Source: Rhodobacterales bacterium (GTDB lineage: Bacteria; Pseudomonadota; Alphaproteobacteria; Rhodobacterales; Rhodobacteraceae). From it: 64,000 bases of DNA. The position numbers and the translations under genes are program-made. Location: contig PDRY01000023.1 of NCBI GenBank assembly GCA_002748265.1, positions 1 through 64,000 of the forward strand, written 5' to 3'. The notes below the pieces were generated by a model. That model did not search any database. It was not told the origin of the DNA and saw only the letters and a program-made list of their open reading frames with translations. Below, piece after piece: positions 39,968 through 62,520 of the stretch. Positions within the stretch are counted from its first letter, which is position 1; each line of letters starts with the position of its first letter.

Positions 39968-40039
39968 TTGCCCAAGACATATCCGGTGAAAGGACGGCGC
40001 ATCAAAGAACGCCGCCAGAGATTTTCGGGGAACGGGCGA

Positions 40040-41362
40040 ATGCAGGCAAGTCACAGGCAAGCACGGCTGATCGCGGCAGCGGCGGCGTTGGCGCTGCTGA
40101 CGGCCTGCGATGGCATGCCTGAAGTGCCCCGGCTTGGCCTTGGGGGCAAGGATGCCGCGAGTGCCCCTCAAGCCTCGGCAAGCGATGCCGCGCTTGATCC
40201 CGGCATGGCGGATGGATCGCAGTCAGAGATCATCAATACATTGCTCGCGCGCCGCTCGGTGTTGGACCAGGGCGCGTTTGCGCGCGTCTCGGATGCAGTG
40301 ATGGCTGCCAATGCGCGGGCGGCTGAAGCCGATTTGCGTGCGGCCGTGCTGCGCAGCGAGGCCACGCAGCGCAACTGGCTGCCGACCGTGGGCCCACAGG
40401 TCAGCCTGACCTCCCTGGGTGATGTGATGACCCAGTTGGTGGTGGATCAGGTGCTGTTCGATAATGGCGGCAAGCGGGCGGAGCGGGCTCTGGCCCGTGC
40501 CGATGTCGAAGTCGCCGCCGTTGCCCTTGCGCAGGACAGCAACACGCGCGTTGCGGATGCGCTGAGCCTCTATCTGGAGGCCGAAGCAGCCAGTGCCCGT
40601 GCCAAGGTCAATGCGGGCGCGATGGAGCGCATGGAGCATTTCGAATGGGTCATGACCGAGCGGGTGCGCGGCGGGATCAATGACCGCTCCGACCTGTCTA
40701 TCGTGACCCAGCGGCTGACCCAGATGCGGTCGGATCTGTCCTCGGACCGGGAACGCGCGGCGAGCGCCAAGGCGGAGCTGGCGGCGATGTCGGCGGTCTC
40801 GCTGGCCGATATCAGCGGCCTTTCCGGGATGCGCGATGCTGGAGAGATCACCCCGCTTTCGGTGCTCAAGGCCGAAGCGGAAGCGAAGCGCGCTGTGGCG
40901 CAGGCCCGCGCGGCGCGGGCGGGTTTGCTGCCGTCTCTGGGCGTGAGCGCGGTCGCGGATGGCGATGGCGTGAGCGGCGCTCTGACGGGCGGCGGGCGGC
41001 TGGGCTTTGGCACCGGCAAGAGCCTGGAGGCCGTTCAGGCCAGCGAAGCGGCGGCGCAGGCCCGTGTGGGCCAGGCCCGCGAAGAAGCTGATCGCGAGCT
41101 GCGGGGGCTCAGCGGCGAGCTGGCCTCGATGGAGCGTCAATACGCCGAAGCGCAGGGCATCGCCGCGCAGGCCGCGCAGAACTACGATCTGTTCGAAGCC
41201 CAGCTCGAAGCCGGGCGCCGCACGGTGCCCGAGGTGATCGGCGTGTTCGAGACCAAGATCCGCACGGAACGCGCAGCGGTGTCGCTGCTCTATGACATTG
41301 CCCGGCTGCGGGTGAAAATCGCGGCGCTCAAAGGTGCCCTGGTGGAAGGGGAAAAGGTATGA
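40040..41362 (+). CDS. TolC-family outer membrane lipoprotein of the adhesin T1SS
   Basis: The 440-residue protein has a lipoprotein signal (LALLTACDG, lipobox at about residue 24), unlike the Sec-type TolC at 2.8 kb. Long coiled-coil repeats and a QVLFDNGGKRAERALARA segment fit a TolC/LapE duct. It is the dedicated outer-membrane component for the adhesin. ATG 40040 is chosen over 39968 because the signal peptide begins there. Its last 4 bases overlap the ABC gene start. Confidence 0.85.
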   Translation: MQASHRQARLIAAAAALALLTACDGMPEVPRLGLGGKDAASAPQASASDAALDPGMADGSQSEIINTLLARRSVLDQGAFARVSDAVMAANARAAEADLRAAVLRSEATQRNWLPTVGPQVSLTSLGDVMTQLVVDQVLFDNGGKRAERALARADVEVAAVALAQDSNTRVADALSLYLEAEAASARAKVNAGAMERMEHFEWVMTERVRGGINDRSDLSIVTQRLTQMRSDLSSDRERAASAKAELAAMSAVSLADISGLSGMRDAGEITPLSVLKAEAEAKRAVAQARAARAGLLPSLGVSAVADGDGVSGALTGGGRLGFGTGKSLEAVQASEAAAQARVGQAREEADRELRGLSGELASMERQYAEAQGIAAQAAQNYDLFEAQLEAGRRTVPEVIGVFETKIRTERAAVSLLYDIARLRVKIAALKGALVEGEKV

Positions 41363-43599: not shown

Positions 43600-43602
43600 G
43601 CC

Positions 43603-44772
43603 ATGGCGACGTTCGATGCAGAGTTCGAGACCCGCATGCGGGGGCCGTCCATGCTCATCTGGATGGTCGGGGCGACAGTGCTGATCTTCCTGATCTGGGC
43701 GAAATTCGCCTGGATTGACGAGATCGTGCGCTCCAATGGCGAGGTAGTGTCCTCGTCTCGCCCGCAGATCATCCAGAACCTCGAAGGCGGCATCCTGTCG
43801 GAGCTGTTGGTCTCGGAAGGCGATGAGGTCGCAAAGGGCGATGTGATCGCCCGGCTGCGGGGCACGCAGTTTGCGTCCTCAGTGGATGATTTGCACGACC
43901 AGATTGACGCTCAGGAAGTCCGCCGTCTGCGGCTGGAAGCCGAGATGGAAGGCCAGTTCGATTTCATCGTGCCCGAGGATCTGGCCGCCCGCTCGGCGGA
44001 GATGGTCGCGTCGGAACGCGCGCTTTTGAATGCGCGTCAGTCCGACTACGTGAGCCGTGTCGAAGGCGCCCGCCGGGTGCTGGCCGAAGCCAAGACCGAG
44101 CGTGACATGATGGAGAACATGCTCTCGCGCGGGATCGTCGCCCAGATTGAGGTGACCGGCGCGCGCAAGGCCTACTCGGATGCGGAAAACCACGTCAACG
44201 AAATCGTGACCTCGGCGGAGCTGGACCGCGCGAGCGTCTATTCCGAAACGCTGGCGCGGCTGGCCACGTTGCGGCAGGAGCTGCGCGCCGCAGAAGACCG
44301 GCTGTCGCGCACCACGATCACGGCGCCGATGCGCGGGATCGTGAACAACCTTGCGGTGACCACGATTGGCGGCGTCGTGCGCCCCGGAGAACAGATCGCG
44401 GAGATCATTCCGCTGGGCGACGAGCTGTTCATCGAGGCCCAGGTGAAGCCCTCCGACATCGCCAACGTGATCCCCGGCCAGGCCGCGACGATCAAGCTGT
44501 CGGCCTATGATTATACGGTCTGGGGCACGCTGTCCGGGCGGATTGATCTGGTGTCGGCGGACACGTTCAAGGACGAGCGCCGCCCCGATATGCCGCCGCA
44601 TTATAAGGTCACGGTGAAGGTGGACCGCTCCAATCTGAGCACGCGCCAGCAAGGGATCGAGATTCGGCCCGGCATGCAGGCCGCCGTTGAGCTGCACACC
44701 GGCGAAAAGACCGTGCTGCAGTATCTGACCAAGCCGCTCTATCGCTCGCGTGAGGCCCTGCGGGAGCCATAG
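43603..44772 (+). CDS. HlyD/LapC-family membrane fusion protein of the adhesin T1SS
   Basis: The 389-residue protein has one N-terminal membrane helix (MLIWMVGATVLIFLIWAKF), a periplasmic biotinyl-lipoyl-like part (ILSELLVSEGDEVAKGDVIARL), a long coiled-coil hairpin (about residues 100-240) and a beta-barrel C-terminus with GMQAAVELHTGEKTVLQYL typical of HlyD. It bridges the ABC transporter and the TolC-like duct. It completes the four-gene secretion locus (substrate, TolC-like, ABC, adaptor). Confidence 0.93.
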   Translation: MATFDAEFETRMRGPSMLIWMVGATVLIFLIWAKFAWIDEIVRSNGEVVSSSRPQIIQNLEGGILSELLVSEGDEVAKGDVIARLRGTQFASSVDDLHDQIDAQEVRRLRLEAEMEGQFDFIVPEDLAARSAEMVASERALLNARQSDYVSRVEGARRVLAEAKTERDMMENMLSRGIVAQIEVTGARKAYSDAENHVNEIVTSAELDRASVYSETLARLATLRQELRAAEDRLSRTTITAPMRGIVNNLAVTTIGGVVRPGEQIAEIIPLGDELFIEAQVKPSDIANVIPGQAATIKLSAYDYTVWGTLSGRIDLVSADTFKDERRPDMPPHYKVTVKVDRSNLSTRQQGIEIRPGMQAAVELHTGEKTVLQYLTKPLYRSREALREP

Positions 44773-48571: not shown

Positions 48572-49182
48572 GTCAGATCGACCGGACGCGCGGCTAGGCT
48601 CGCGTTGAGTTCAACAGCCTCGTCAAGCCGCGCGCGATACGCTGCGCGGGAGATCTCGATGCCCCCCATCGACGCGAGATGATCGGTGATGAACTGGGTG
48701 TCGAACAGCGCAAACCCGCCCTCACGGAGAAGGTCCACAGTGACCGCCATGGCGATTTTCGAGGCGTCCCGCACCCGTGAGAACATGCTTTCGCCAAAGA
48801 AAGCGCCCCCGATGCTGACGCCGTAGAGCCCGCCCACGAGCCCGTTTTCATCCCGGATTTCAATCGAATGGGCGTGGCCGCGTTGGTGCAGTGCGAGGTA
48901 AAGCGCGGCGATCTCGGCGTTGATCCAGGTCTCCTGCCGGTCGGCGCAGCCCTCTACGACCCCGGCGAAGTCTTCGTTGACCGTTGCGTGCAGAGTTCCC
49001 CGCCGCATGGTGCGGGCCAGGGAACGTGAGATGTGAAATCCGTCCAGAGGAATGATCCCCCGCCGCCGCGGGTTCACCCAGAAGATTTCAGGATTGTCGC
49101 GCCCCTCTGCCATGGGGAAGAGCCCCGCCACATAGGCCCGCAGCAAGAGCTCGGGCGTGAGGGCGGGGCTTTCGTCGCGCAT
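48538..49182 (-). CDS. aat: Leucyl/phenylalanyl-tRNA-protein transferase
   Basis: The 214-residue enzyme adds Leu or Phe to proteins with N-terminal Lys or Arg, marking them for ClpS/ClpAP degradation (N-end rule). LRAYVAGLFPMAEG, FWVNPRRRGIIPLDGFHISRSL, TWINAEI and GGLYGVSIGGAFFGESMFS are family motifs. The start at 49182 ([13 protein letters not shown]) overlaps the accC stop (ATGA), so it is the last gene of the accB-accC-aat operon. Confidence 0.94.
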   Translation of the reverse strand: MRDESPALTPELLLRAYVAGLFPMAEGRDNPEIFWVNPRRRGIIPLDGFHISRSLARTMRRGTLHATVNEDFAGVVEGCADRQETWINAEIAALYLALHQRGHAHSIEIRDENGLVGGLYGVSIGGAFFGESMFSRVRDASKIAMAVTVDLLREGGFALFDTQFITDHLASMGGIEISRAAYRARLDEAVELNASLAARPVDLTHVLQRSIQTS

Positions 49183-50534
49183 CAGGCTTGGGTGGCTTGC
49201 TCCAGCCACCGCTCCAGCCAGTGGATGTTGTAGTCACCGCTATGGATGTCCGGCTCTTCCAGCAGGGCATGGAACAGCGGCACGGTCGTATCGACGCCGT
49301 CCACGATCAGCTCTCCGAGGGCGCGCTTGAGCCGGGCAAGCGCGGCGGGGCGGTCCGGGCCATGCACGATCAGCTTGCCGATCAAGCTGTCGTAATAGGG
49401 CGGGATCGAATAGCCGTCATAGAGCGCGCTGTCGATCCGAACGCCCAGCCCGCCGGGGGCGTGATACTGGGTGATCTTGCCGGGGCAGGGCGCGAAATCG
49501 GGCAGGCGTTCCGCATTGATCCGCACCTCGATGGCGTGGCCATTCAGCTGCAGGTCGTCTTGGGTGAAGGACATGTCCTCCCCGGCGGCGACGCGGATTT
49601 GCTCCCGCACGAGATCGACCCCGAAGATGCCTTCGGTCACCGGATGCTCCACCTGAAGACGGGTGTTCATCTCGATGAAGTAGAATTCGCCCTTCTCGTA
49701 GAGGAATTCGATCGTCCCGGCGCCAATATAGTTGATCTTGGCCACAGCATCGGCGCAGACCTTGCCGATCTTGGCCCGCTCTTCGGGGGTGATGCAGGGG
49801 CCGGGGGCCTCCTCGAACACCTTCTGGTGGCGGCGCTGCAGGGAACAGTCCCGCTCGCCCAGATGCACGGCGCGGCCTTTGCCGTCCCCAAAGACCTGGA
49901 TTTCGATATGGCGCGGCGTGGTCAGATATTTCTCAATATAGACCTCATCGTTGCCAAAGGCGGCTTTTGCTTCGGCGCGTGCGGTCTGGAAGGCGGATTT
50001 CATCTCACCCGCATTGCGCGCGACCTTCATGCCGCGCCCGCCGCCACCTGCCGTGGCTTTGATGATGACCGGGTAGCCCATTTCGGCGCCCAGCTTTTCG
50101 GCCTCTTCCAGCGTGGGGACGCCGCCGTCCGATCCGGGCACGCAGGGCACGCCAAGCGCCTTCATCGTGTCCTTCGCGGTGATCTTGTCGCCCATGACGC
50201 GGATGTGTTCTGCCGAGGGGCCGATGAAGGTCAGCCCGTGGTCTTCGACGATCTGCACGAAATTGGCGTTCTCCGACAGGAAGCCGTAGCCGGGGTGGAT
50301 CGCCTGGGCGCCCGAGATTTCGCAGGCGGAGATGATCGCCGGCATCGACAGGTAGCTGGCCGAAGCGGGCGCGGGGCCGATGCAGACGCTTTCATCGGCC
50401 ATGCGGACGTGCATGGCGTCGGCGTCGGCGGTGGAATGCACCGCAACGCTTTGGATGCCCATTTCCCGCGCGGCGCGGATGACGCGCAGGGCGATTTCGC
50501 CGCGGTTGGCGATGAGGATTTTGTCGAACATCAT
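49182..50534 (-). CDS. accC: Biotin carboxylase subunit of acetyl-CoA carboxylase
   Basis: The 450-residue enzyme carboxylates biotin on AccB using ATP and bicarbonate. The N-terminal [19 protein letters not shown], the ATP-grasp motif GGGGRGMK and [16 protein letters not shown] are diagnostic. Two adjacent ATG codons (50534 and 50531) are possible; both overlap the accB stop, so translation is coupled. It provides malonyl-CoA for fatty acid synthesis with AccA/AccD elsewhere. Confidence 0.96.
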
Positions 50535-51031
50535 TCGATAATCATCAGCGGCGCGCCGAATTCGACGGGCGCTCCGTCTTCCACGAGGATCCGGGTGACC
50601 TTGCCTGCGCGCGGGGCCGGGATCTGGTTCATGGTCTTCATGGCTTCGACGATCAGCAGGGTCTGGCCTTCGGTCACGCTGTCACCAACCGAGACAAAAG
50701 AGGGCGTTCCGGGCTCCGGCTGAAGGTAGACGGTGCCGACCATCGGAGAGGTCACCGCGCCGGGATGTGCGGCGGGGTCTTCGGCGGCGGGGGCTGCGGG
50801 GGCCGCGGCAGCAGCGGGGGCGGCCGCGGGCGCTGCGACCGGGGCGGCGACGCTGACGGGGGCCGGAGCGGCAGCGATCGCGGGGGCCTGACGGCTCACC
50901 CGGACGTTCAGGCGACCGTCGTCGCCGTATTCGCGCTTGACCTCCAGCTCGGTCAGGTCGTTTTCATTGAGCAGCTCCGCCAGAGCGCGGATGAAGGCCA
51001 CATCGCTGTCGGCGTTTTTTTTCTGTGTCAT
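50531..51031 (-). CDS. accB: Biotin carboxyl carrier protein of acetyl-CoA carboxylase
   Basis: The 166-residue protein has an N-terminal helical part ([22 protein letters not shown]), a central Ala/Pro-rich linker of about 40 residues and a biotinyl domain with EAMKTMN, in which the Lys is biotinylated. It is the first gene of the accB-accC-aat operon on the minus strand. Confidence 0.96.
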
Positions 51032-51208: not shown

Positions 51209-52012
51209 TCAGATCGCCAGATATTCCGCACGCAGCTCGTCGTTCTCCAGCACCTCTTTCGCGGAGCCGTCGAAGACGACAGAGCCGGTGTCGAGGATCA
51301 CGGCCCGGTCCGACAGGTTCAGCGCGGCGACGGCGTTTTGTTCCACGATCACCGTGGTGATGCCCTGATCGCGGATTGTCTCCAGCGTCCGGGCGATCTC
51401 TTGCACGATGACCGGGGCCAGCCCTTCATAGGGCTCGTCCAGCAGCAGCACCTTGATGTCGCGGGTCAGGGCGCGGGCGATGGCGAGCATCTGTTGCTCG
51501 CCCCCTGACAGGGTGACACCCTCTTGCTTGCGCCGCTCACGCAGGCGCGGAAAGAGGTCGTAGACCCGCTCAATCGACCAGCCGTGATCGGGGGCGATCT
51601 GAGCCAGTTCAAGGTTCTCCTCCACTGTCAGGCCGGGGATGATGCAACGATCTTCGGGCACTAGGGCAATGCCCGCGCGGGCGGCCTGGAAACTCTTCAT
51701 CTCGTGCAGCGGCTGGTGGTCCAACCAGATTTCCCCGTGGCGCAGCTCTGGATCGCCCATGCGGGCAATGGTGCGCAGGGTCGAGGTCTTGCCCGCGCCG
51801 TTGCGCCCCAGAAGCGCGAGGATCTCGCCTTCGTGGATGTTAAAGCTCACGCCCTGCACGATGTAGCTCTCGCCGTAATAGGCCTGAACGTCCCAGACGG
51901 AGAGGTAGGGGTGATGGGTCGCCGCATTGTTGGCGCCGGGCTTGTACTCCCCCGAATGCATGGGCTGGTGCAGGCCGGACTTGGTGCCGGGGTCGATGAT
52001 CTTGTCGCTCAT
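51209..52012 (-). CDS. livF: Branched-chain amino acid/amide ABC transporter ATPase LivF-type
   Basis: The 267-residue ATPase shows Walker A GRNGAGKT, signature LSGGEQQM and Walker B VLLLDEPYEGLAP, characteristic of LivF. It carries about 35 extra N-terminal residues before the usual start of the fold, with no recognised domain. ATG 52012 has GAGGAGA 7 bases upstream. It is the last gene of the five-gene operon (binding protein, livH, livM, livG, livF). Confidence 0.93.
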   Translation of the reverse strand: MSDKIIDPGTKSGLHQPMHSGEYKPGANNAATHHPYLSVWDVQAYYGESYIVQGVSFNIHEGEILALLGRNGAGKTSTLRTIARMGDPELRHGEIWLDHQPLHEMKSFQAARAGIALVPEDRCIIPGLTVEENLELAQIAPDHGWSIERVYDLFPRLRERRKQEGVTLSGGEQQMLAIARALTRDIKVLLLDEPYEGLAPVIVQEIARTLETIRDQGITTVIVEQNAVAALNLSDRAVILDTGSVVFDGSAKEVLENDELRAEYLAI

Positions 52013-52023
52013 GGCATGTCTCC

Positions 52024-52782
52024 TCAAACCTGCGCTTCACCCAGATACGCTTCGCGCACCTTGGGATGGCCTTTGATGTTTTCGGGGGTTTCTTCGACCA
52101 GCGGCGTGCCCTGGGCCAGCACCGTGATCCGGTCGGCCAGGGAAAACACGACATGCATGTCGTGTTCGATGATCGCCATGGTGATGTCGCGCTTTTCCTT
52201 GATCTCCTTGAGAAGGTCGATCGTGTTGTTGGTATCGGCGCGCGCCATGCCCGCGGTCGGCTCGTCCAGCAGCAAAAGCCGGGGCTCCTGCACCAGGCAC
52301 ATGGCCATCTCAAGGCGGCGTTTGTCCCCGCGCGAGAGGTTCTTGGCCACGATGTCCCCTTTGTCGAGCATGTTGACATCGGCCAGCATCGCGTCGGCCT
52401 GATCCCCGATCTCGCCCTCGGCTTCGACGGTTTCCAGGGCGTGCATGCGGAAGGCCCCATCCCGCTTGGCAAAGCACGGGATCAGGACGTTTTCGCGCAC
52501 GGTCAGATCCCCGAAAATCTCCGGGGTCTGGAACACGCGGCTGATGCCCATCTGGTTAATCTCATGGGGTTTGCGGCCCAGCACGCTCTGCCCGTCGAAC
52601 ATCACCGATCCGGTGTCCGGGATCAGCTTGCCGACCAGGCAGTTGAGCAGCGTGGACTTGCCCGCCCCGTTGGGGCCGATGATCGCATGGACGGAGTTTT
52701 CCATCACCGACAGGTTCACATCGCCCAGGGCCTGAAGCCCGCCGAAGCGCTTGCCGACGCCTTTGACTTCCAGAAGTCCCAT
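52024..52782 (-). CDS. livG: Branched-chain amino acid/amide ABC transporter ATPase LivG-type
   Basis: The 252-residue ATPase has Walker A GPNGAGKST, signature LSRGDKRR (a common LivG-type divergence from LSGGQ), and Walker B LLLLDEPTAGM. FQTPEIFGDLTVRENV is the typical Q-loop region. ATG 52782 (MGLLEVKGV) has AAGGA upstream. The livM stop lies 1 base upstream, so the genes are co-translated. Confidence 0.93.
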   Translation of the reverse strand: MGLLEVKGVGKRFGGLQALGDVNLSVMENSVHAIIGPNGAGKSTLLNCLVGKLIPDTGSVMFDGQSVLGRKPHEINQMGISRVFQTPEIFGDLTVRENVLIPCFAKRDGAFRMHALETVEAEGEIGDQADAMLADVNMLDKGDIVAKNLSRGDKRRLEMAMCLVQEPRLLLLDEPTAGMARADTNNTIDLLKEIKEKRDITMAIIEHDMHVVFSLADRITVLAQGTPLVEETPENIKGHPKVREAYLGEAQV

Positions 52783-52783
52783 A

Positions 52784-53950
52784 TCAATTGTCCTTCTTGT
52801 TGCGGCGGAAGGCCCGCGCGATGCGCTGCCCGCCTTCAACCAGCCCACCGGGGAGGAAGATCACGACCAGCATGAACAGGATGCCAAGCGTCAGGTGCCA
52901 GCCTTTGCCCACAAAGGGGTGCACGATGGTGATCAGGAAATCTTCAATCCCGTCGGGCAGGAAGGCGAACCACTGGTGCAAGATGCCATCGTTGATCTTC
53001 GAGAGGATGTTTTCGAAGTATTTGATGAATCCCGCGCCCAGCACCGGCCCCATCAGGGTGCCCGCGCCGCCGAGGATGGTCATCAGGACGACCTCGCCGG
53101 AGGCGGTCCACAGCATCCGATCGGCGCCCGCCAGCGGATCCATCGCCGCCATCAGGCCACCGGCCAGACCGGCATACATGCCCGAGATGACGAAGGCCGC
53201 GAGCGTGTAAGGCTTGGCGTTCAGCCCGGTGTAGCTCATCCGGTTCTGGTTCGACTTCACCGCGCGCAGCATCATCCCGAAGGGCGAGCGGAAGATCCGC
53301 AGGCTCAGGTAGAAGGCGAGGATCGCGATCACGGCGCAGAAGTAGTAGCCGACATTGAAGGTCCACAGGCGGCCCAGGGCTTCGACCTGGGTCGAGGCGT
53401 TCATCGGGATGCCGAAGAGGTTCGTCACCGGCAGCGATCCGTTGGTCGCGGCGGCATCCAGGATGCGCGGGTCGTCCAGTTCAAGCTGCAGGCCGGTCTC
53501 GCCATTGGTGATCGGGGTGAGCACCGAATAGGCGAGCGAGTAGCTCATCTGCGCGAAGGCCAGCGTGAGGATCGAGAAGTAGATCCCGGAGCGCCGCAGC
53601 GAGATGTAGCCGATCAGCAGCGCGAACAGCCCTGCGACGATCACCGCCAGGATGATGGCCGGAATGACGTTCATGCTCAGCAGTTTGAACATCCAGACCG
53701 CCGAATAGGAGCCCACCCCAAGGAAGGCCGCATGGCCAAAGGACAGGTAGCCGGTCAGGCCAAAGAGGATGTTGAAGCCGATGGCAAAGATGCCAAAGAT
53801 CGCAAACCGCTGCATCAGGTCCGGGTAGCCCGCGTTGAACTGCGCCAGCGACGAGCTTTCCGCAAAGGGTTGCGTCAGGATCGGGGTTGCGAGCGTGAGG
53901 AACATCACGATCAGCAGGAACTTGGTGTCTTTGGAATTCAGTCCAAGCAT
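52784..53950 (-). CDS. livM: Branched-chain amino acid/amide ABC transporter permease LivM-type
   Basis: The 388-residue inner-membrane protein has about 10 helices and the LivM signature [36 protein letters not shown] marks the C-terminal conserved loop. With LivH it forms the translocation path. The substrate class (branched-chain amino acids, urea, amides) is not set by the permease. livH ends 3 bases upstream. Confidence 0.93.
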
Positions 53951-53953
53951 GAA

Positions 53954-54976
53954 TCAGTCCTCCATCACGCCCTTGCGGCCCATGAGGCCCCTCGGACGGG
54001 TCAGCAGAATGATGATGGCAACGAGATAGATGATGATCTGGTCGATGCCGGGGAAGATGGATTTGACCTCGGTCATGGAGGCAAAGCTCTGCAGGATGCC
54101 CAGCAGGAAACCTGCCGCGACCGCTCCGGGCAGGGAGCCCATGCCGCCGACCACGACGACGACGAAGCTCAGCACCAGGAAATCCATCCCGAAATGATAG
54201 TTGGGCGACAGGATCGGTGTGTACATGACCCCCGCCAGCCCCGCGACGACGGCCGCAAGCGCGAACATCGCGGTAAAGCGGCGATCAATGTCGATGCCCA
54301 GCAGCCCCACGGTGTCGCGATCGGCCATGCCTGCGCGGACCACCATCCCGAAGGTGGTGAATTGCAGGAAGGCGAACACGGCGCCGATGACGAGCAGCGC
54401 GAAGATGAAGTAGACGATCCGCCACACCGGATAGATCACATCCATCCCGAACAGGGCGCCCACATTGGCGACGCCGTTCAGAGCGTCGGGCGCGGCCACT
54501 TGGATCGGGTTGGCGCCGTAGTAGTACTTGATGATCTCTTGCAGCACGATGGCGAGCCCGAAGGTCACAAGGATCTGGTCCGCATGGGGCCGGTTGTAGA
54601 AATGCTTGATCAACCCGCGCTCCATTGCGTAGCCGACGGCGATCATCACAGGCACCGCCAGCAGGATGGAAAGAGGGACCGACCAGTCGATCACCCAGGC
54701 GCCGAAATCGGGGCCGAACCAGGCTTCGACATAGGGGGTCTTGACCTTGGCGGGGTTGCCCAGGAAGTCCGTCTTGTTCGGGTCGATGGTTTCAAAGCTG
54801 AGATTCAGGAGCCGCTGCATCGTCACGGCGCAAAAGGCGCCGATCATGAACAGAGCCCCGTGAGCGAAGTTCACGACCCCCAGCGTGCCAAAGATCAAGG
54901 TCAGCCCGAGCGCGATCAGCGCATAGGCAGAGCCCTTGTCCAGCCCGTTGAGAATCTGAAGGAATATAGCGTCCAT
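53954..54976 (-). CDS. livH: Branched-chain amino acid/amide ABC transporter permease LivH-type
   Basis: The 340-residue inner-membrane protein has about eight helices and starts with IFLQILNGLDKGSAYALIALGLTLIFGTLGVVNFAHG, the LivH signature. VVVVGGMGSLPGAVAAGFLLG is the EAA-like loop. It shows a longer periplasmic segment (DPNKTDFLGNPAKVKTPYVE) than E. coli LivH, common in Rhodobacterales. It pairs with LivM. Confidence 0.93.
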   Translation of the reverse strand: MDAIFLQILNGLDKGSAYALIALGLTLIFGTLGVVNFAHGALFMIGAFCAVTMQRLLNLSFETIDPNKTDFLGNPAKVKTPYVEAWFGPDFGAWVIDWSVPLSILLAVPVMIAVGYAMERGLIKHFYNRPHADQILVTFGLAIVLQEIIKYYYGANPIQVAAPDALNGVANVGALFGMDVIYPVWRIVYFIFALLVIGAVFAFLQFTTFGMVVRAGMADRDTVGLLGIDIDRRFTAMFALAAVVAGLAGVMYTPILSPNYHFGMDFLVLSFVVVVVGGMGSLPGAVAAGFLLGILQSFASMTEVKSIFPGIDQIIIYLVAIIILLTRPRGLMGRKGVMED

Positions 54977-55074: not shown

Positions 55075-56418
55075 TTAGCCGGCGTTACACTCGCCCAGAG
55101 CACCGCCCGTGAACATCGGGTGATCGGCGGCATATTCGACCTGGCCGCGCGGGGTGATCTCCACGACTTCCAGAAGGTCGAATTCGCTGTCCGGGTTTTC
55201 CTTCCCGCGCACGACCAGCACGTCCTTGAAGCACTGGTGGTCGTCGGCACGGTAGAGCGTCGGGCCATTGCCCAGCCCGTCGAACTCGAAGCCTTCAAGC
55301 GCTTCGACGACGGCGCAGGGGTTGAAGGACCCGGCGCGCTGCACGGCATCGGCATAGAGCAGCGTCTGCACGTAGCAGGTGTGCGCCGCCTGGCTGGGCG
55401 GGAAGCCGTATTTCTGGCCGAAGGACTGCACGAAGGCCTTGGAGCCTTCGTCGGTCAGCGACCAGTGCCAGTTGGTCGAACCGGGGATGCCCTTGATGTT
55501 CTGACCGGCGCCGCGCGCCATCAGGCGCGAGAACAGCGGCACGACGATCTGGAAATCCTTGCCGTTCACGACTTTCTCGCGCAGGCCGAACTGCACGGCA
55601 TTGGTGAGCGAGTTCACCATGTCGCCGCCGTAGTGGTTCAGGATCAGAACGTCGGCATCGGTGTTCAGCACCGGCGCGATGTAGGACGAGAAGTCCCCGG
55701 CGCCCAGCGGGGTGCGGACCTTCTCGATGGTGTCCCAGCCCATGGCCTCGGTGGCGGCAGCAATGGATTCTTCCTGGGTCCAGCCCCAAGTGTAATCCGC
55801 CGTCAGGTGATAGGCCTTGCGGTCGTCGCCGTAGAGGTTCTTCAGCACCGGAGCGAGCGCCGCAGCGGACATGTAACCGTTGAAGAAGTGACGGAACCCG
55901 TTGGCTTTCTTGTCCTTGCCGGTGGTGTCGTTCGAATGCGTCAGACCGGCCATAAAGATCACACCGGCTTCCTGGCACAGGCCCTGCACGGCGATCGCCA
56001 CGCCCGAGGACGAGCCCCCGGTGATCATGATCGCGCCGTCCTTTTCGATCATCGACTTGGCCGAAGCGCGGGCGGCGTCAGACTTGGTCTGAGTGTCGCC
56101 GGTCACATATTCGACCTTCTTGCCGAGGATCCCGGTGCCGTCGAGCACCTTCGAGGAGAAGGTGTTCAGCATGCCGCCGTCGCCGCCGCCGTTCAGGTGC
56201 TCGACCGCCAGTTCATAGGCGCGCAGCTCGTCCGCGCCTTCGTCGGCATAAGCGCCGGTCTGGGGCACGTTGAAGCCCAGCGTGACGGAGCCGCCGCTGG
56301 GTTCGTTGGTGAAGGCCGATGCGCTGGACGCGGTGAAGACCGTCGGCAGCGCAAGCCCCGCCCCAGTCACGGCGCTGGTCTTGAGCAGACCGCGACGGGT
56401 GAAGTTGGATTTCGTCAT
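55075..56418 (-). CDS. TAT-exported ABC substrate-binding protein (LivK/amide-binding type)
   Basis: The 447-residue protein has a twin-arginine signal (TRRGLLKTSAVTGAGLALP) and a periplasmic binding protein fold of the leucine/amide/urea-binding class (VTLGFNVPQTGAYADEGADEL, TGGSSSGVAIAVQGLCQE). TAT export suggests folding before secretion. Size fits the LivK-like family; the ligand could be branched-chain amino acids, amides or urea-like compounds. ATG 56418 has GGAGGAAA upstream. It is divergent from the XRE regulator gene. Confidence 0.88.
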   Translation of the reverse strand: MTKSNFTRRGLLKTSAVTGAGLALPTVFTASSASAFTNEPSGGSVTLGFNVPQTGAYADEGADELRAYELAVEHLNGGGDGGMLNTFSSKVLDGTGILGKKVEYVTGDTQTKSDAARASAKSMIEKDGAIMITGGSSSGVAIAVQGLCQEAGVIFMAGLTHSNDTTGKDKKANGFRHFFNGYMSAAALAPVLKNLYGDDRKAYHLTADYTWGWTQEESIAAATEAMGWDTIEKVRTPLGAGDFSSYIAPVLNTDADVLILNHYGGDMVNSLTNAVQFGLREKVVNGKDFQIVVPLFSRLMARGAGQNIKGIPGSTNWHWSLTDEGSKAFVQSFGQKYGFPPSQAAHTCYVQTLLYADAVQRAGSFNPCAVVEALEGFEFDGLGNGPTLYRADDHQCFKDVLVVRGKENPDSEFDLLEVVEITPRGQVEYAADHPMFTGGALGECNAG

Positions 56419-56589
56419 GGATTTCCTCCCTGGATCGAAGCGCCCGTGAGCCTCCCCGCTCCGGGCGCATCTTTGCGTGTGTCCGTTATCGGCCACCTTC
56501 CCAGTATCGCGGGCTTTCAGAAAATTGCGCAACATGGCGCTTGATCGTCAGATATTTTCTGTAAAATAATCATCAAAGCGGCGCAGAAA

Positions 56590-56609
56590 TCTGAAAATTG
56601 GTTTTCAGA
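56590..56609. promoter_or_regulatory. Perfect inverted repeat upstream of the XRE/DHp regulator
   Basis: TCTGAAAA-TTGG-TTTTCAGA is a perfect 8-bp inverted repeat with 4-base centre, ending 13 bases before the GTG start of the regulator. A related half-site (TTTTCTG) occurs about 40 bases further up, and a TTGCGCAA palindrome at 56525-56532. The position fits an autoregulatory operator and could also serve the divergent binding-protein gene. Confidence 0.6.
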
Positions 56610-56622: not shown

Positions 56623-57930
56623 GTGTCAGAACAAGAGGTTGCGGACGGTGCCGGGCGGCGCCTGCGGGCCGCGCGGATGGCGCGGGGGATGCGGCAGGCC
56701 GATCTGGCGAAGGCGGCGGGGATCTCGGCCTCCTATCTCAATCTGATCGAGCATGACCGGCGCAGAATCGGCGGGCGGCTGCTGCACGATCTGGCGCGGG
56801 AGCTGGGACTGGAGCCGTCGGTCCTGACGGAGGGGGCTGACAGTGCCGTGGCCGGACGGCTCGCCGCCGTGGCCGCGCGCGCGGGCAGCACGGCCGGGCA
56901 GGCGGAAGATCTGGCGGCGCGGCATCCCGACTGGGCAACACTGATCCTGAACCAGGCGGAGCGGCTCGACCGGCTTGAGGCGCGGGTTACGGCGCTCACC
57001 GACCGGCTGGCCCATGATCCGCAGATGGCGGAGGCGCTGCACGACGTGATCTCGGCGGTCACGGCGATCCGCTCCACAGCGGCGATCCTGACGGAATCCG
57101 AAGAGCTTGACGCCGATTGGCGGCGCCGGTTTCACGCCAATCTTCACCAGGACGCGCTGCGGCTCACGGAGCGTTCAGGCGCGTTGCTGGCCGGGTTGGA
57201 ATCGCCTGCGGGGCAATTGGTGCGTGCGCCATGGGAGGAGGCGGAAGCCGTCTTCACGCGCCACGGTTATCACTTTGCCGCCCTCGAAGAGGGGGGCGAT
57301 CCCGGCCGGGTCGCCCTGCAGGAGCCGGGACCAACCAGCCCCTCCGCGCGCCGGATGCTGGCGCGATGGCTCGCGCGCTATGCTCAGGATGCGATGGCGC
57401 TTCCGCTCGAGCCGTTTTCGGACGCCGCGCGGGCGCGGAATTATGATCCTCTGCGGATCGCCCGTGATCTGAACGTCCCGCTTGCCCGGGTATTGCGGCG
57501 GCTCTCCAGCCTGCCTGAGGGGGAGGGGCATCCCGCCTTCGGGATTACCGTTTGTGACGGAGGCGGGGGGCTCTTGTTCCGCAAGCCGCTCGCGCGGCTG
57601 ACCTTGCCGCGGGGGGGCGGAGGCTGCCCGCTCTGGCCGCTTTACGGCGCGCTGCTGCGGCCGGGCCAACCGATTGACGAAGTGGTGCGGCTGCCCGACG
57701 CCGGGGCTGCGCCGCTGCGCGCGGTGGCGATTGCCGATCCGCAAGGGTTGAACCCAACCGGCACCCCGCGTGCGGAGGCGACCATGCTGCTGAGTGTTGC
57801 GCCAGAGGGGGCGGAGGCCGCTCCTGTCGGGCCGGGATGCCGTAGCTGCGCCCGCGAGCAGTGCTCGGCCCGGCGCGAACCGGTCTGGCCCGGCGGCGCG
57901 GCGGATGTGACGGATGCCGCGACACTTTGA
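56623..57930 (+). CDS. XRE-family regulator with internal DHp-like segment and ScfR/RamB-like C-terminus
   Basis: The 435-residue protein starts at GTG with AGGGGGAGG upstream. An HTH_3 domain lies at about residues 11-65 (QADLAKAAGISASYLNLIE). Residues 138-192 resemble the HisKA dimerisation/phosphoacceptor hairpin: HDVISAVTAIR at 140-150, then RRRFHANLHQDALRLTE. The last 140 residues resemble ScfR/RamB-type short-chain fatty acyl regulators (CPLWPLYGALL, GCRSCAREQCSARREP with CxxCxxxxC). No kinase ATP-binding domain is present. Downstream genes encode a receiver and a histidine kinase, so a signalling link is likely; phosphorylation of His140 is speculation. Confidence 0.78.
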   Translation: MSEQEVADGAGRRLRAARMARGMRQADLAKAAGISASYLNLIEHDRRRIGGRLLHDLARELGLEPSVLTEGADSAVAGRLAAVAARAGSTAGQAEDLAARHPDWATLILNQAERLDRLEARVTALTDRLAHDPQMAEALHDVISAVTAIRSTAAILTESEELDADWRRRFHANLHQDALRLTERSGALLAGLESPAGQLVRAPWEEAEAVFTRHGYHFAALEEGGDPGRVALQEPGPTSPSARRMLARWLARYAQDAMALPLEPFSDAARARNYDPLRIARDLNVPLARVLRRLSSLPEGEGHPAFGITVCDGGGGLLFRKPLARLTLPRGGGGCPLWPLYGALLRPGQPIDEVVRLPDAGAAPLRAVAIADPQGLNPTGTPRAEATMLLSVAPEGAEAAPVGPGCRSCAREQCSARREPVWPGGAADVTDAATL

Positions 57931-57993: not shown

Positions 57994-58362
57994 ATGGGCC
58001 AACGCGTTCTTCTGATTGAAGACGAACCGAACATTATTGAGGCGATCAGTTTCATTCTGACCCGCGATGGATGGACCGTGCACACCCATGAGGACGGCAC
58101 GACCGCTATGGAGAAAGTGACCGCCTCGCTGCCGGATCTGGTGATCCTCGATGTCATGCTGCCGGGTAAATCCGGCTTCGACATCCTGCATGACATCCGC
58201 TCCGAAACCGCCACGGCGGAGGTGCCGGTCCTGATGCTGACCGCGCGCGGCCAGACCCGCGACCGGGAGCTGGCCCGTAAGCTGGGCGTGACCCGGTTCA
58301 TGACGAAACCGTTTTCGAACGACGAGATCCGCGATGCCGTCCGCGCGCTCGCCTCGGGGTGA
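57994..58362 (+). CDS. Receiver-only response regulator
   Basis: The 122-residue protein is a single REC domain with acidic pocket Glu9-Asp10-Glu11, phosphoacceptor Asp53 (LVILDVMLPG), Thr83 (LMLTARG) and Lys105 (FMTKPFS). It has no output domain, so it must act through protein contacts or as a phosphorelay carrier. The kinase gene is 215 bases downstream and the DHp-like regulator gene is 63 bases upstream. AGGGAGGAA precedes the start. Confidence 0.93.
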   Translation: MGQRVLLIEDEPNIIEAISFILTRDGWTVHTHEDGTTAMEKVTASLPDLVILDVMLPGKSGFDILHDIRSETATAEVPVLMLTARGQTRDRELARKLGVTRFMTKPFSNDEIRDAVRALASG

Positions 58363-58576
58363 GTCCGACACCCGGCGCCGCCTGCGCGACACCGCCCGGC
58401 TGTTGCCGCTGGCCGGAGCGCTTGCCATGGTGCTGCCGCTGCTCTGGCGGGGCAGCGATCTGACCTGGGCGATGACGCCGGTGCTGATCTACCTGTTTGC
58501 GGTCTGGATCGCGCTCATCATCGTGGCGGCTCTGCTGGCGCGGGGGCTGTGCGACCCGCCGAGACGGTCTGACTGA
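58334..58576 (+). CDS. Small two-helix membrane protein
   Basis: The 80-residue protein has a basic N-terminus (RRRLRDTARLL) and two hydrophobic helices (LAGALAMVLPLLW and LIYLFAVWIALIIVAALLARG). It overlaps the response-regulator gene by 29 bases and the kinase start by 1 base, so translation of all three is coupled. It resembles the small membrane partners that often accompany SLC5-type transporters; a role supporting the sensor is an inference. Confidence 0.7.
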   Translation: MPSARSPRGESDTRRRLRDTARLLPLAGALAMVLPLLWRGSDLTWAMTPVLIYLFAVWIALIIVAALLARGLCDPPRRSD

Positions 58577-61176
58577 TGTCGCTCAATCTTCTGGCGGCGG
58601 CGGCGCTGCTGTATACGGCCTTCCTGTTCGGCATTGCCCATCTGGCGGATCGCCGGGCGGAGCGGGGGCGCGGCGTGTGGCTGAGCTCTCCGGTGGTCTA
58701 CACGCTGTCGCTGTCCGTCTATTGCACCGCCTGGACCTTCTATGGCGCGGTCGGCTACGCGGCGCGGTCCGGGCTTGAATATCTGACGATCTATCTGGGG
58801 CCGACGCTGGTGATGACCGGGTGGTGGGTGCTGCTGCGGCGGCTGGTCCGGGTCGGACGCGAGAGCCGCATCACCTCCATCGCGGATCTCGTGGCGTCGC
58901 GCTTTGGGCGTTCTGCGGTGTTGGGCGCAGGGGTCACGGTGCTCGCTGTAGTGGCGGTGACCCCGTATATCGCTTTGCAGTTGCAGTCGGTCACACTGTC
59001 CTTGGGCGTGTTCGCGAAGGCCCACGGGGGTGAAGATCCTCGGTCTCCGGCGATCTGGGTCGCGGCGGGGCTGGCGGCCTTCACCATCCTGTTCGGCACC
59101 CGCAACCTGGATGCCAATGAACGCCACCATGGGGTGGTCACCGCCATCGCGGTGGAGGCCGTCGTCAAGCTCGTGGCGCTTACAGCCGTGGGCGGCTTCG
59201 TGGTGTGGTCGCTGGCCGGAGGCCCCGCGCCACTGGCGCGCCTGATCGCGCAGTCTCCGCTGGCCGAGGTGCCCCAGAGCGGCGGGCGTTGGATCGGCTT
59301 GACGATGGTCTCGGCGCTCGCGTTCCTGACCCTGCCGCGGATGTTTCAGGTGCTGGTGGTCGAGAACACCGATGAGCGCCATCTGGCCACCGCAAGCTGG
59401 GCCTTCCCGGCCTATCTGCTGGCCATGAGCCTGTTCACCGTGCCCATCGCCGTGGTCGGCATGGAGCTGTCCGCGCCGGGCGCGAATCCCGACCTGTTCG
59501 TTTTGTCGCTGCCTCTGGACCAGGGGCGCGAAGGGTTGGCCCTATTGGCGTTCCTGGGTGGGTTCTCGTCGGCGACGTCCATGGTGATCGTGGCGACGAT
59601 TGCCCTCTCGACCATGGTGTCGAACCACATCGTGCTGCCGCTTTGGCTGTCGGGCACGCGGCGGCGTGCGACCATGGCGGGGGATATCCGCCGCTTGCTC
59701 TTGCGGGCCCGCAGGGCGTCGATCGTCGCCATCTTGGGGATGGGCTATCTATATTACCACGTCTCAGGCGGCGGCGCGGCTCTGGCTTCGATTGGCACGA
59801 TCTCGTTCGTCGGGATCATCCAGATTGCGCCCGCGCTGATAGCGGGGCTGTTCTGGCGTGGGGCCAGCCCGCTGGGCGCGGCTTTGGGTCTGACCGCAGG
59901 CTTTGCAATCTGGATCTGGGGGCTGCTGTTGCCCTCTGCCGGGCTGATCAGTGCGCAGATCATGGCGTCCGGGCCGTTCGGTATCGCGGCTCTGCGCCCC
60001 CATGCTCTGTTCGGGAGCAGCATGCTCGACCCGGTTCTGGCAACGGCGTTGTGGTCGCTGACGGCGAACGCGGTTCTGCTCGCCGCGGGATCGCTGCTGA
60101 CGGGTACGGCAGCGCCCCTGAACGAGGAGTTCCCCGCAGAGCCCAGAAGCGCCGAAGAGCTGTTGCTCATGTCGCAGCGCATCCTGGGCGCACGTGAAGC
60201 GCGGGCCTTTTTCGCGGCAGAGGCACTGGCGCAGGGCGTGGCGGGATCGCCCGACGTGACCCCCGAACTGCTGGAGCGGCTCGAGCGGCTCATGGCGGGG
60301 TCCGTGGGGGCCGCGACGGCCCACGCCATGGTTGGCCAGATGGCCGGAGGCAGCGGCGCGCTTTCGGCGGAAGACCTGTTTGCTGTCGCGGATGAGGCCG
60401 CACAGATCATGGAGTATTCCGCCCGGCTGGAGGCCAAGAGCCGCGAGCAGGAGCGCACCGCCCGCGCCCTACGGAGCGCCAACGCAAAGCTCACCGCGCT
60501 TGGGCATCAAAAGGATGCGTTCCTCAGCCAGATCAGCCACGAGCTGCGCACCCCGATGACGTCGATCCGGGCGTTTTCGGACATTCTGGCGGAGCCCGGC
60601 CTGCCTTCGGAGGATCGCAACCGCTTTGCTGGCATCATCCGCACGGAAGCGATCCGGCTCACCCGGCTTCTGGATGATCTTTTGGATCTGTCCGTGTTGG
60701 AGAACGGTCACGTGACGCTCAACATCGCCCATGGTCGGCTCGACGAGGTCATCGACCGTGCGCTCGATGCCGCAGGGGCGTCGGCGGCGGCGCTTGAGGT
60801 GCGCCGTGACCGAAGCCGGGAGGCGCGTGTCGCGCTCGATACCGATCTGGATCGGCTCGCTCAGGTGTTCATCAATCTGATGACCAATGCGGCCAAATAC
60901 TGCGATGCGCCCAAGCCGCGCCTGATCTTGCGCGCGGGCGAGGTGGATGGGCGCAACGTCATGGATTTCATCGACAATGGGTCGGGCATTCCGGCTGACA
61001 AGGTGGATCTGATCTTTGAAAAATTCGCGCGGCTGGGTGAGGATTCCAAAGCGGGCGGGGCGGGGCTCGGGCTCGCCATTTGCCGCGAGGTCATGGACCG
61101 GCTGGGCGGCGGGGTGGATTACCTGCCCGGCGAAGAGGGCGCCGCGTTTCGGGTCACGCTTCCGGGCGCGCGTTAG
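58576..61176 (+). CDS. SLC5 transporter-histidine kinase fusion (CrbS/CbrA-type sensor)
   Basis: In this 866-residue protein, residues 1-510 form a sodium:solute symporter-like domain of about 13 helices. A helical linker of about 130 residues follows. The kinase core has the H-box SHELRTPMTS with His655, N-box NLMTNAAKY, G1 DNGSGI, F-box FEKFARL and G2 GAGLGLAI. Such fusions (CrbS, CbrA) sense or transport a solute such as acetate or histidine and signal to a response regulator. The receiver-only protein upstream is the probable partner. No PAS domain is clear. Confidence 0.9.
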   Translation: MSLNLLAAAALLYTAFLFGIAHLADRRAERGRGVWLSSPVVYTLSLSVYCTAWTFYGAVGYAARSGLEYLTIYLGPTLVMTGWWVLLRRLVRVGRESRITSIADLVASRFGRSAVLGAGVTVLAVVAVTPYIALQLQSVTLSLGVFAKAHGGEDPRSPAIWVAAGLAAFTILFGTRNLDANERHHGVVTAIAVEAVVKLVALTAVGGFVVWSLAGGPAPLARLIAQSPLAEVPQSGGRWIGLTMVSALAFLTLPRMFQVLVVENTDERHLATASWAFPAYLLAMSLFTVPIAVVGMELSAPGANPDLFVLSLPLDQGREGLALLAFLGGFSSATSMVIVATIALSTMVSNHIVLPLWLSGTRRRATMAGDIRRLLLRARRASIVAILGMGYLYYHVSGGGAALASIGTISFVGIIQIAPALIAGLFWRGASPLGAALGLTAGFAIWIWGLLLPSAGLISAQIMASGPFGIAALRPHALFGSSMLDPVLATALWSLTANAVLLAAGSLLTGTAAPLNEEFPAEPRSAEELLLMSQRILGAREARAFFAAEALAQGVAGSPDVTPELLERLERLMAGSVGAATAHAMVGQMAGGSGALSAEDLFAVADEAAQIMEYSARLEAKSREQERTARALRSANAKLTALGHQKDAFLSQISHELRTPMTSIRAFSDILAEPGLPSEDRNRFAGIIRTEAIRLTRLLDDLLDLSVLENGHVTLNIAHGRLDEVIDRALDAAGASAAALEVRRDRSREARVALDTDLDRLAQVFINLMTNAAKYCDAPKPRLILRAGEVDGRNVMDFIDNGSGIPADKVDLIFEKFARLGEDSKAGGAGLGLAICREVMDRLGGGVDYLPGEEGAAFRVTLPGAR

Positions 61177-61240: not shown

Positions 61241-61372
61241 ATGGGGATCGCCACGCTTATGCGCCGCTGGCTGCCGCGTCGTCCGGTGTCCACGGTGCCG
61301 CCAATCTCCAACGGCGGTGCGATGAGCGTGGCCTGCCTGCGGGCGGCGACCGGACGTGAGGGGCGGGCATGA
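61241..61372 (+). CDS. 43-codon ORF coupled to the FliM-like gene
   Basis: ATG at 61241 opens a 43-residue basic reading frame (MGIATLMRRWLPRRPV...) whose TGA overlaps the next ATG (ATGA). A run of five G lies 5 bases upstream. It may be a small real gene or a leader that couples translation of the FliM-like protein. No family is recognised. Confidence 0.35.
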   Translation: MGIATLMRRWLPRRPVSTVPPISNGGAMSVACLRAATGREGRA

Positions 61373-62520
61373 CTGCAGCCGTTGGCGTGCTGACCCGCAA
61401 GGTCGCGGCGAAGGCCGCGCCGCCAGACGCGGGCCCCGTGGTGCGGCGTGCCATGCGGCAGGCGGCGGATCGCCTTTTGGGATTGGATGCGCAGGTGTCC
61501 GGCATCGAGATCACAACCGCAACGCCGGAGCAGCTCCTTGCTCCCTGCGGGGAGCAGAGCCTGCTCCTGACGCTGGAACGGGAGGGCGCTGTCGTTGGTG
61601 CCGTATCGATGGAACAGCCGGTGTGGTCGGCCTTGGTGGCCTTGCAAACGATAGGGCGGATCGGGCGTTCTGACGCGCGGGCGCCCTCCGGGGCCGATGC
61701 CGCCATGGCGGAGCCGTTGATCAACAGCTTCATCCAGGCCCTGTTGGCGCAGGACGTGCCTGATGAGCTCGCGGCCTGGATGCCGGGCTTGGTGGTCGGA
61801 AAGCGATTGCGGTCCAGAAGGATTGTCGAGCTGACGATGCCGCCCCACCCGATCGGAGCGCTGACCGTGAACATGGCCCTCGAAGACGAGGAGACGGCAG
61901 CGCTATGCCTTTTCGCCACAGAACCCGCGCCAGAGGAACATGCTGCGGAATCGGCCGACTGGTCCGAGAGCTGGTCGCGGGTGGCCCGCCAGGCGCCCGT
62001 GCGACTGGAGGCGCGACTGCACCGTTTCACCCTGCCGCTGAGCCGCGTGTCCGCCTTGTCCGCCGGAGATGTCTTGCCCCTGGATGGCGCCAGCGTGGCG
62101 GGGTTGGAGCTGATCGCGGCAGGCGGGCAGGTTGCAGCCCGCGCGCGGCTAGGCAGGATCGGGTCCATGCGCGCCGCGCGTATCGAAGCGCCGGCCGCAC
62201 CCACCATGCGGGATCTGCACGATGGCGCCGCCGAAGCATTCCCGGCCATCGACAGCGCAGGGCCGGATGCACTGTCGATTGAAGATGTGCCATTGGTGCC
62301 GGACATCGAAGACGGGGCGTTGAGCGCCGACAGGGCACCCGGCTTGGACGACCTTCCCGCTTTGACAGAAGAGGTCCAGGACCAGGCGATCCCGCCGGAC
62401 GCGCCCGATTTCGACACCGAAGCGAGCGAGCCCCTGACTGCGGCGGCACCGGATCTCGATCTGGACCTTCCGGCCCCAATTGATTTCGGCCTGCCACCTT
62501 TGGACGTGCCAGAAAGCTAA
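61369..62520 (+). CDS. Orphan FliM/SpoA-domain protein with acidic tail
   Basis: The 383-residue protein has an N-terminal region like FliM middle domains (VVRRAMRQAADRLLGLDAQV, later GLVVGKRLRSRRIVEL). A SpoA (FliM/FliN C-terminal) domain lies at about residues 211-275 (LEARLHRFTLPLSRVSALSAGDVLPLDG). The last 110 residues are acidic, Pro-rich and low-complexity. The N-terminal CheY-binding motif of true FliM is not evident. No flagellar genes are near. It could be a flagellar switch relative placed outside its operon or a repurposed protein in a signalling locus. Confidence 0.72.
   Translation: MTAAVGVLTRKVAAKAAPPDAGPVVRRAMRQAADRLLGLDAQVSGIEITTATPEQLLAPCGEQSLLLTLEREGAVVGAVSMEQPVWSALVALQTIGRIGRSDARAPSGADAAMAEPLINSFIQALLAQDVPDELAAWMPGLVVGKRLRSRRIVELTMPPHPIGALTVNMALEDEETAALCLFATEPAPEEHAAESADWSESWSRVARQAPVRLEARLHRFTLPLSRVSALSAGDVLPLDGASVAGLELIAAGGQVAARARLGRIGSMRAARIEAPAAPTMRDLHDGAAEAFPAIDSAGPDALSIEDVPLVPDIEDGALSADRAPGLDDLPALTEEVQDQAIPPDAPDFDTEASEPLTAAAPDLDLDLPAPIDFGLPPLDVPES

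Follow-up and report, generated by a model that had tools for sequence, protein, structure and literature searches.

Response regulators made up of a receiver alone are widespread, and often it is not known what they act upon. The locus considered here, part of a window of 64,000 nucleotides of Rhodobacterales DNA (assembly GCA_002748265.1, contig PDRY01000023.1, positions 1 to 64,000), raises the corresponding question directly: a membrane sensor kinase and a one-domain receiver are encoded immediately beside a DNA-binding regulator of the XRE type, and it has to be asked where a signal that passes from the first to the second is finally delivered. The regulator is probably the missing output of the adjoining kinase’s signalling pathway. 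On balance we favour a two-component system whose output transcription factor carries a captured copy of the kinase DHp domain, on which the receiver would dock and where it would most likely phosphorylate a conserved histidine (His140). The component parts are listed in Table 1.

Table 1. Parts of the regulator–receiver–kinase locus and its surroundings (window coordinates)
Feature	Position	Strand	Basis or remark
XRE-DHp-ScfR regulator, 435 aa, GTG start	56623..57930	+	Pfam HTH_3 E 4.6e-11, ScfRs E 4.4e-11
HTH_3 DNA-binding domain, regulator residues 14-67	56662..56823	+	Pfam
Inserted DHp-like helical hairpin, regulator residues 127-200	57001..57222	+	Profile comparison; missing from 12 insert-free ScfR homologues
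His140 codon of regulator	57040..57042	+	Aligned to kinase phospho-acceptor His655; His in 197/199 distinct relatives
ScfRs (GAF-like/C-terminal) match, regulator residues 310-361	57550..57705	+	Pfam; family profile vs PrpR 6cyj E 7e-49
C-X2-C-X4-C motif of regulator (C406, C409, C414)	57838..57864	+	With C335, PrpR [4Fe4S] ligand positions (motif as given in PMC6765138)
Receiver-only response regulator, 122 aa	57994..58362	+	Pfam Response_reg E 5.7e-26
Receiver Asp53 codon, phospho-acceptor position	58150..58152	+	D53 in 81/81 aligned copies
Membrane sensor kinase: N-terminal half probably SLC5-type, then HisKA, HATPase_c	58576..61176	+	Pfam; N-terminal half matches 10ed_A
Kinase DHp domain; His655 codon 60538-60540	60514..60684	+	Closest match to XRE insert in own genome
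First putative regulator box CTGTAAA	56559..56565	+	Upstream pattern search
Second, imperfect putative box CTGAAAA, 32 bases downstream of first	56591..56597	+	Spacing as in relatives
Substrate-binding protein of Urt/Liv-type ABC transporter, divergent, conserved neighbour	55075..56535	-	
Remaining Urt/Liv-type ABC transporter genes: two permeases, two ATPases	51209..54976	-	Conserved neighbours

Several other genes of the window may be mentioned for orientation. Just beyond the kinase gene (61369-62520) a protein is encoded that has a weak FliM/SctQ-type C-terminal match; in 33 of the loci listed, a relative of it follows the kinase. At 49182-51031, immediately downstream of the divergent ABC transporter, the translations suggest biotin carboxylase and biotin carboxyl carrier genes. 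A large repeat-rich protein followed by TolC-like, ABC and HlyD-like genes, again by the look of the translations, occupies 37105-44772 and is perhaps a type I secretion cluster.

The preliminary description of this DNA had placed a kinase-like hairpin at positions 57034-57198, that is, at residues 138-192 of the 435-residue XRE protein. Those coordinates are correct and the hairpin is real, the unit itself being slightly larger (about residues 127-200, 57001-57222); the alignment offered at the time was also reproduced, with D132-L189 lying over kinase residues D647-L703 and His140 over His655. When the window’s regulator and kinase are compared as single sequences, the match is modest and above chance: residues 138-192 give a local score of 58, which none of 2000 shuffles reaches (maximum 55), and residues 126-200 give a score of 62, which is reached by one shuffle in 2000 (maximum 66). 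Pfam HisKA has no match in the window protein even at E 1, and an NCBIfam match to the kinase model CreC at residues 138-184 falls far under its cut-off (E 0.019).

A DHp match by profile search had been set beforehand as a test, and its outcome was strong. A profile of 98 insert segments was run against 10,123 open reading frames from all loci collected. XRE proteins apart, its top matches were 55 neighbouring kinases, each at the DHp domain and with E between 9e-13 and 5e-7 (one row of the match list, L102, is an XRE duplicate). The next matches, from E 0.09, are second stretches within kinases; no protein besides XRE proteins and kinases appears below E 1, and the first non-kinase reading frame stands at E about 6. 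Direct comparison of the insert profile with a kinase-DHp profile in hhalign gave a probability of 98.2 and E 6e-14, with His140 again over His655. When the insert profile was searched against the genome of the window, the adjoining kinase (E 2.6e-10) came directly after the regulator itself, and the next match stands at 0.075. In the reciprocal direction, the kinase-DHp profile recovers the XRE protein of one genome (G204) at E 7e-17 and, weakly, that of another (G219, 8e-6), while the window protein is not recovered at E 1e-5. Because it is missed both by Pfam HisKA and by the kinase-DHp profile, the window hairpin is to be regarded as a divergent copy.

Nine of the 98 members match Pfam HisKA by themselves at E 0.1 or better (best 2.6e-7), and the curated cut-off of that model is passed by the regulators of loci L225 and L071. 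The L225 regulator, from genome G204, reaches 33.8 bits over a cut-off of 26.9, and shares 44% identity over 110 residues (E 7e-18) with the adjoining kinase, the two genes being convergent neighbours. A PDB profile search with the insert returned HK853-type kinase chains at only E 0.03, which is no proof alone. As judged from these comparisons, the XRE protein contains, at residues 127-200, a DHp hairpin of the HisKA type that is homologous to the kinase DHp. The regulator possesses no ATPase domain, as had been stated at the outset: Pfam finds no HATPase_c match in the 435-residue protein at E 1.

The hairpin had also been described as ‘captured’ by a transcription factor, and the family comparisons bear this out, in that insert-free homologues exist, the inserts form one clade, and the nearest match in the regulator’s own genome is the adjoining kinase. 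The window regulator displays the XRE-type HTH and ScfRs C-terminal domain that are the hallmark of the ScfR/IsaR proteins, and across its family HTH_3 is found in 97 of 98 members and ScfRs in 95 of 98 (E 0.1 or better). Residues 127-200 are missing from 12 of 110 aligned ScfR-homologue rows, including L001, a second ScfR protein of the same genome. Compared with the PrpR structure (6cyj), the family profile aligns over positions 56-133 and resumes at 200, so that the hairpin lies between the segment that follows the DNA-binding domain and DIII (domain names as in PMC6765138). In a tree of 79 DHp sequences, which its 61 columns make weak for fine detail, all 31 distinct inserts lie on one side of a single branch (100/90), and the nearest row to the L225 insert is the kinase of its own genome. 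By this tree the inserts have one origin.

Searches of an open-access library, as judged from their listings, showed no report of an XRE-DHp-ScfR protein; the earlier description likewise knew of no system with this domain order. What comes nearest is a protein of an ScfR similarity network, Pden_1785, which adjoins a two-component system and falls outside the proteins studied (PMC10370305); it may be an orthologue of the XRE-DHp-ScfR regulator.

If the hairpin is to serve as a docking or phosphorylation site, the fate of its histidine is of obvious importance, and conservation of His140 had likewise been named beforehand as a test. Of the 98 members of a first set, 97 have His there; in a wider set of 199 distinct proteins, which, having been chosen by profile scores, is biased toward members that keep the hairpin, the count is 197. 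The collections searched were sampled, and in one search 80 of 347 relatives were listed. The first set was chosen by whole-protein similarity, with the duplicate L102 dropped and the window copies L002 and L083 left out. The second, which left out L002, L083 and L113-L116, was selected by a full-length profile score above 60 bits, an insert profile score above 30 bits and an open frame of less than 760 residues; its 208 loci became 199 distinct proteins after those identical in the insert and 20 residues on either side were joined. The two exceptions carry Phe (L028) and Tyr (L162, as in DivL). Receiver and kinase still adjoin in the former, and in the latter the own-genome kinase is intact and 3 kb away.

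The residues around His140 suggest which functions have been retained. The position that follows the histidine (H+1) is acidic in 142 of 199 relatives and has lost its acid in 57. H+1 and H+4 have separate duties in HisKA kinases: the acid at the former is required for kinase activity alone, and a T or N at the latter for phosphatase activity alone. Loss of the acid in CrdS and HK853 abolishes autokinase, not phosphatase, activity (as reported in PMC3510030). Because the H+1 acid serves autokinase activity only, the pattern would fit a hairpin that meets a receiver and not ATP: the insert looks kinase-dead, as is expected without an ATPase domain, and appears to retain the residues that would face a receiver. 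Other features count against docking and transfer from a receiver, namely the two non-His relatives in which the kinase is kept, the lack of an H-box Pro and the nature of H+3. The insert departs from the motif H-E/D-x-x-T/N followed by Pro, with Pro at H+5 in 0 of 202 relatives (a count that predates the joining of same-gene loci with differently cut ends), and H+3 is Leu or Ile, not Arg, in 194 of 199; an Arg at that position is a proposed contact to DivK~P in DivL (PMC4211667).

The DivL precedent leads to an alternative of some, if limited, probability, which is that the hairpin senses the phosphorylated receiver by binding alone, without phosphotransfer, in the manner in which the pseudokinase DivL reads DivK~P. 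The DHp-CA portion of DivL binds the single-domain receiver DivK with a Tyr in place of the His and with no phosphorylation needed (PMC4211667), and recognition of this kind would tolerate both the Phe and Tyr exceptions and the frequent loss of the H+1 acid. However, DivL orthologues have Tyr (and one Ala), whereas nearly every relative of the window regulator has His. Because the His is kept so strictly here, and because the precedent for docking lacks it, phosphotransfer is considered likelier than pure docking.

Whether a receiver is regularly at hand to meet the hairpin can be judged from gene linkage. K105 of the receiver is as fully conserved as its Asp53 (81 of 81 copies), and T83 is found in 78 of 81; Pfam finds no second domain in the receiver protein and no receiver domain in the kinase. 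The receiver gene lies within 600 bases downstream of the regulator in 166 of 181 loci with enough sequence. Among the other 15, five have a receiver at 679-1593 bases and one at 3.4 kb, and nine have none in the flanking sequence covered. At L057 a kinase is present and no receiver was found beside it. Of 133 loci, 126 encode a kinase DHp no more than 3.8 kb away, and in 121 both receiver and kinase are placed in this way. The seven loci with no kinase at this distance (L016, L031, L045, L070, L170, L206 and L217), as well as three with less flanking room (L042, L092 and L101), have a kinase-DHp match elsewhere in the genome at E 3e-29 or better. The flanks of the 12 insert-free homologues, which reach 1.1 to 4.9 kb downstream, contain no match to the kinase.

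Co-occurrence across genomes follows the same course. Among 337 class-level genomes, 39 have both insert and kinase, one the insert only, seven the kinase only and 290 neither (insert E below 1e-16; kinase match E below 1e-8 in an open frame over 850; G360, G433 and G506, with weak matches, were scored as neither). The sole insert-only genome, G261, is 68% complete and its match is at a contig end. Since seven genomes (G328, G253, G512, G429, G284, G488 and G248) have the kinase match and no insert-bearing regulator, the kinase can work without the insert. In another comparison, which covered 41 genomes, an insert-type match (E below 1e-20) was obtained in 25, and in 23 of the 25 the next match stands at E 5e-9 or better. 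In the other two it stands at 2e-4 (G021) or is absent (G008, a genome 82% complete in which the insert is present with no close kinase match); all further matches are 8e-4 or weaker. From its presence in 23 of 25 genomes of the window’s own family and in 40 of 337 at the class level, the hairpin looks old and widely kept.

The kinase itself deserves brief comment. Its N-terminal half matches 10ed_A, a solved ‘histidine kinase’, at E 8e-71. For the kinase of L071, comparison with a sodium/solute symporter model gives E 2e-6, far below that model’s cut-off, and no Pfam symporter domain was found in the four kinases searched. The likeliest reading is that the membrane half is SLC5-type. An analysis of insert–receiver coevolution, run on 176 pairs with an effective number of 129, ranked H+2 with receiver residue 85 first, a residue that we take to lie in the beta4-alpha4 loop; this result was given no weight because the positive control, kinase DHp against receiver, yielded no recognisable contacts.

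It is against this background of linkage that a second alternative has to be judged, in which the hairpin forms a heterodimer with the kinase DHp, such that the regulator is held at the membrane or is phosphorylated directly by the kinase. The closest own-genome match of the hairpin is indeed the adjoining kinase, by a wide gap to the next match, and comparably close second matches recur in 23 of 25 insert-bearing genomes. However, a receiver that is kept between both genes in 166 of 181 loci would then have no output, and H+3 and H+12 differ between insert and kinase. Such an arrangement is improbable. The simplest reading instead takes the transcription factor as the receiver’s docking site: the receiver is a one-domain protein with intact phospho-residues, encoded between the kinase and the carrier of a copy of the kinase DHp.

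Two further proposals would deprive the hairpin of a role in carrying the signal onward. It might be a mere dimerisation element or vestige, with a functionless histidine, which is quite improbable: Phe170 and Leu181, both invariant (199 of 199), look like core positions, and the window member is divergent enough for Pfam HisKA to miss it, but His140 ranks third in conservation among the 60 positions counted, and its counterpart in a DHp helix is an exposed residue, not part of the core, which counts against a purely dimerising function. It might alternatively be a phosphatase or phosphate sink for the receiver, by which the regulator feeds back on the two-component system. The residue at H+4, where T or N is needed for HisKA phosphatase activity (PMC3510030), is Ser or Thr in 189 of 199 relatives (and Asn in 4), which would suit such a function; however, it is mostly Ser (147, against 42 with Thr), not Thr or Asn, and the receiver would again be left without an output of its own, such that this proposal is very improbable. 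That the resemblance is a chance similarity of amphipathic helices has a negligible probability, for although single-sequence similarity is low and both hairpins are preceded, by eye, by helix-rich, coiled-coil-like sequence, the reciprocal recovery of the G204 protein by the kinase-DHp profile and the E-values of the insert-profile, hhalign, own-genome and L225/kinase comparisons argue against it.

The next question is what DNA a regulator so controlled would act upon. The box YTGTAAA occurs in 111 of 122 regions, within 200 bases upstream of the regulator HTH (shuffles 3.4), and a pair of boxes exactly 32 bases apart occurs in 50 of the 122 (shuffles 0), the pattern having been picked after common words in nearly the same regions were viewed. 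In the window, both boxes, the second imperfect, lie within the 87 bases that separate the divergent genes. Perfect palindromes were also considered as the operator; they are scattered, in 41 of 128 upstream regions, and the direct two-box pattern was adopted instead. There are precedents for such sites. RamB of Paracoccus is reported to have two near-identical boxes with an 18-bp spacer (PMC10370305), and the sites of PrpR and RamB contain TTTGC(A/G)AA (PMC6765138). The box pair, these precedents and the conserved ABC neighbour genes together suggest that the regulator is probably an ScfR-type DNA binder that acts on its own promoter and on that of the Urt/Liv-type ABC transporter. The boxes as the regulator’s site, together with the signal and the target genes, are what we infer from this arrangement.

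The sensor part of the regulator combines conserved and altered features. Each of the [4Fe4S] ligand positions (C335, C406, C409 and C414) is Cys in 107 of 110 rows, and the remaining three rows are gapped. The C-terminal part is covered in 95 insert rows, and in these the stretch between the hairpin and the GAF-like domain spans 80-139 residues in 83 cases and 161-188 in 12; in insert-free homologues it spans 178-187. The DIII (IrrE/M78-like) part, at 57229-57558 in the window, is shortened there and in most rows, by about 75 residues in 83 of 95 relatives; long forms with Peptidase_M78 persist. In ScfR/IsaR regulators, DIII and the GAF-like domain together make up the acyl-CoA pocket. His319 of PrpR stacks on the CoA adenine (PMC6765138); the corresponding position holds Arg in 78 and His in 12 of the 95 insert rows, 11 of these 12 being long forms. 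In the window protein, as read by hand from the alignment with 6cyj, the His319 position is Arg292 and the Phe240 position falls within the missing stretch. That DIII is short in most insert rows and that the His319 position is mostly Arg suggests that CoA sensing may have been altered after the hairpin was gained.

The proposed mechanism draws on the homology and single origin of the hairpin, the conservation of His140, the intact receiver Asp, the gene linkage and co-occurrence, and the box pattern. On perceiving its signal, the kinase would phosphorylate Asp53 of the one-domain receiver. The receiver has no output domain of its own; it would dock on the DHp hairpin of the regulator as it would on the kinase, and would most likely pass its phosphoryl group to His140. 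Because the hairpin is placed between the part that binds DNA and the ScfR sensor core, docking or phosphorylation could then alter binding at the two-box site that separates the regulator gene from the divergent ABC transporter. That receiver and regulator are coupled in one form or another is likely, and for phosphotransfer to His140 the chances are about even. There is biochemical precedent for such a step: PhyT takes part in transfer from a single-domain receiver to the His of a kinase-derived phosphotransferase (PMC5898713), and the DHp of ChpT, which is unable to use ATP, shuttles phosphate (PMC3433190). A more far-reaching evolutionary account is offered tentatively. In it, a transcription factor would have become the end point of a phosphorelay (kinase to receiver to His140) by taking in the DHp of its partner kinase, after which members of the Rhodobacteraceae type gave up much of the acyl-CoA sensing domain, in effect converting a metabolite-sensing one-component protein into a regulator controlled by phospho-histidine. 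Clear mutants can be defined for these ideas, including H140A or H140Y, D53A and deletion of residues 127-200.

The closest known relatives of the regulator are the ScfR/IsaR proteins (RamB, PccR and MccR/PrpR), with which it shares the XRE HTH, the ScfRs domain, and C335 with the C-X2-C-X4-C motif. The 32-base spacing also corresponds to that of RamB, with two 14-bp boxes and an 18-bp spacer (the 14 being derived by subtraction from an 80-bp fragment; PMC10370305). Unlike those regulators, the protein described here has a DHp-homologous insert of about 74 residues, and in its family DIII is mostly short and the PrpR His319 position mostly Arg. In its manner of working, and in that respect only, the hairpin resembles Spo0B, ChpT and PhyT, as a DHp-type hairpin with a conserved His that is expected to obtain its phosphate from a receiver. 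Spo0B and PhyT are separate phosphotransferases. ChpT, too, is a separate phosphotransferase and has an ATPase-like second domain (PMC3433190), whereas the hairpin described here forms part of a DNA-binding protein, with no sign of a further receiver to follow.

The DivL-DivK pair of Caulobacter offers a parallel of a different kind, in which a kinase-derived DHp is used for reading a single-domain receiver (PMC4211667); DivL, in contrast, is a pseudokinase with Tyr, and the present protein is a transcription factor with His. With its HisKA and HATPase_c domains and probably SLC5-type membrane half, the kinase would resemble those of the SLC5/STAC systems (CrbS/CrbR, CbrA/CbrB and RpuS/RpuR). 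CrbS and RpuS are hybrid kinases and CrbR and RpuR are LuxR-family regulators (PMC9100948), whereas the kinase described here has no Pfam receiver domain and its receiver protein no second domain. The hairpin regulator may finally be set against the PRD type. PRD-containing regulators (LicT, LevR type) are transcription factors controlled by His phosphorylation, but with another fold and another donor (PTS). If the reading favoured here is true, it adds to these systems a new two-component-to-DNA wiring, in which a kinase docking domain has been moved into a transcription factor instead of a receiver being fused to it, and in which the likely output of a receiver can be read from the genome as a regulator that bears a copy of that receiver’s natural docking partner.
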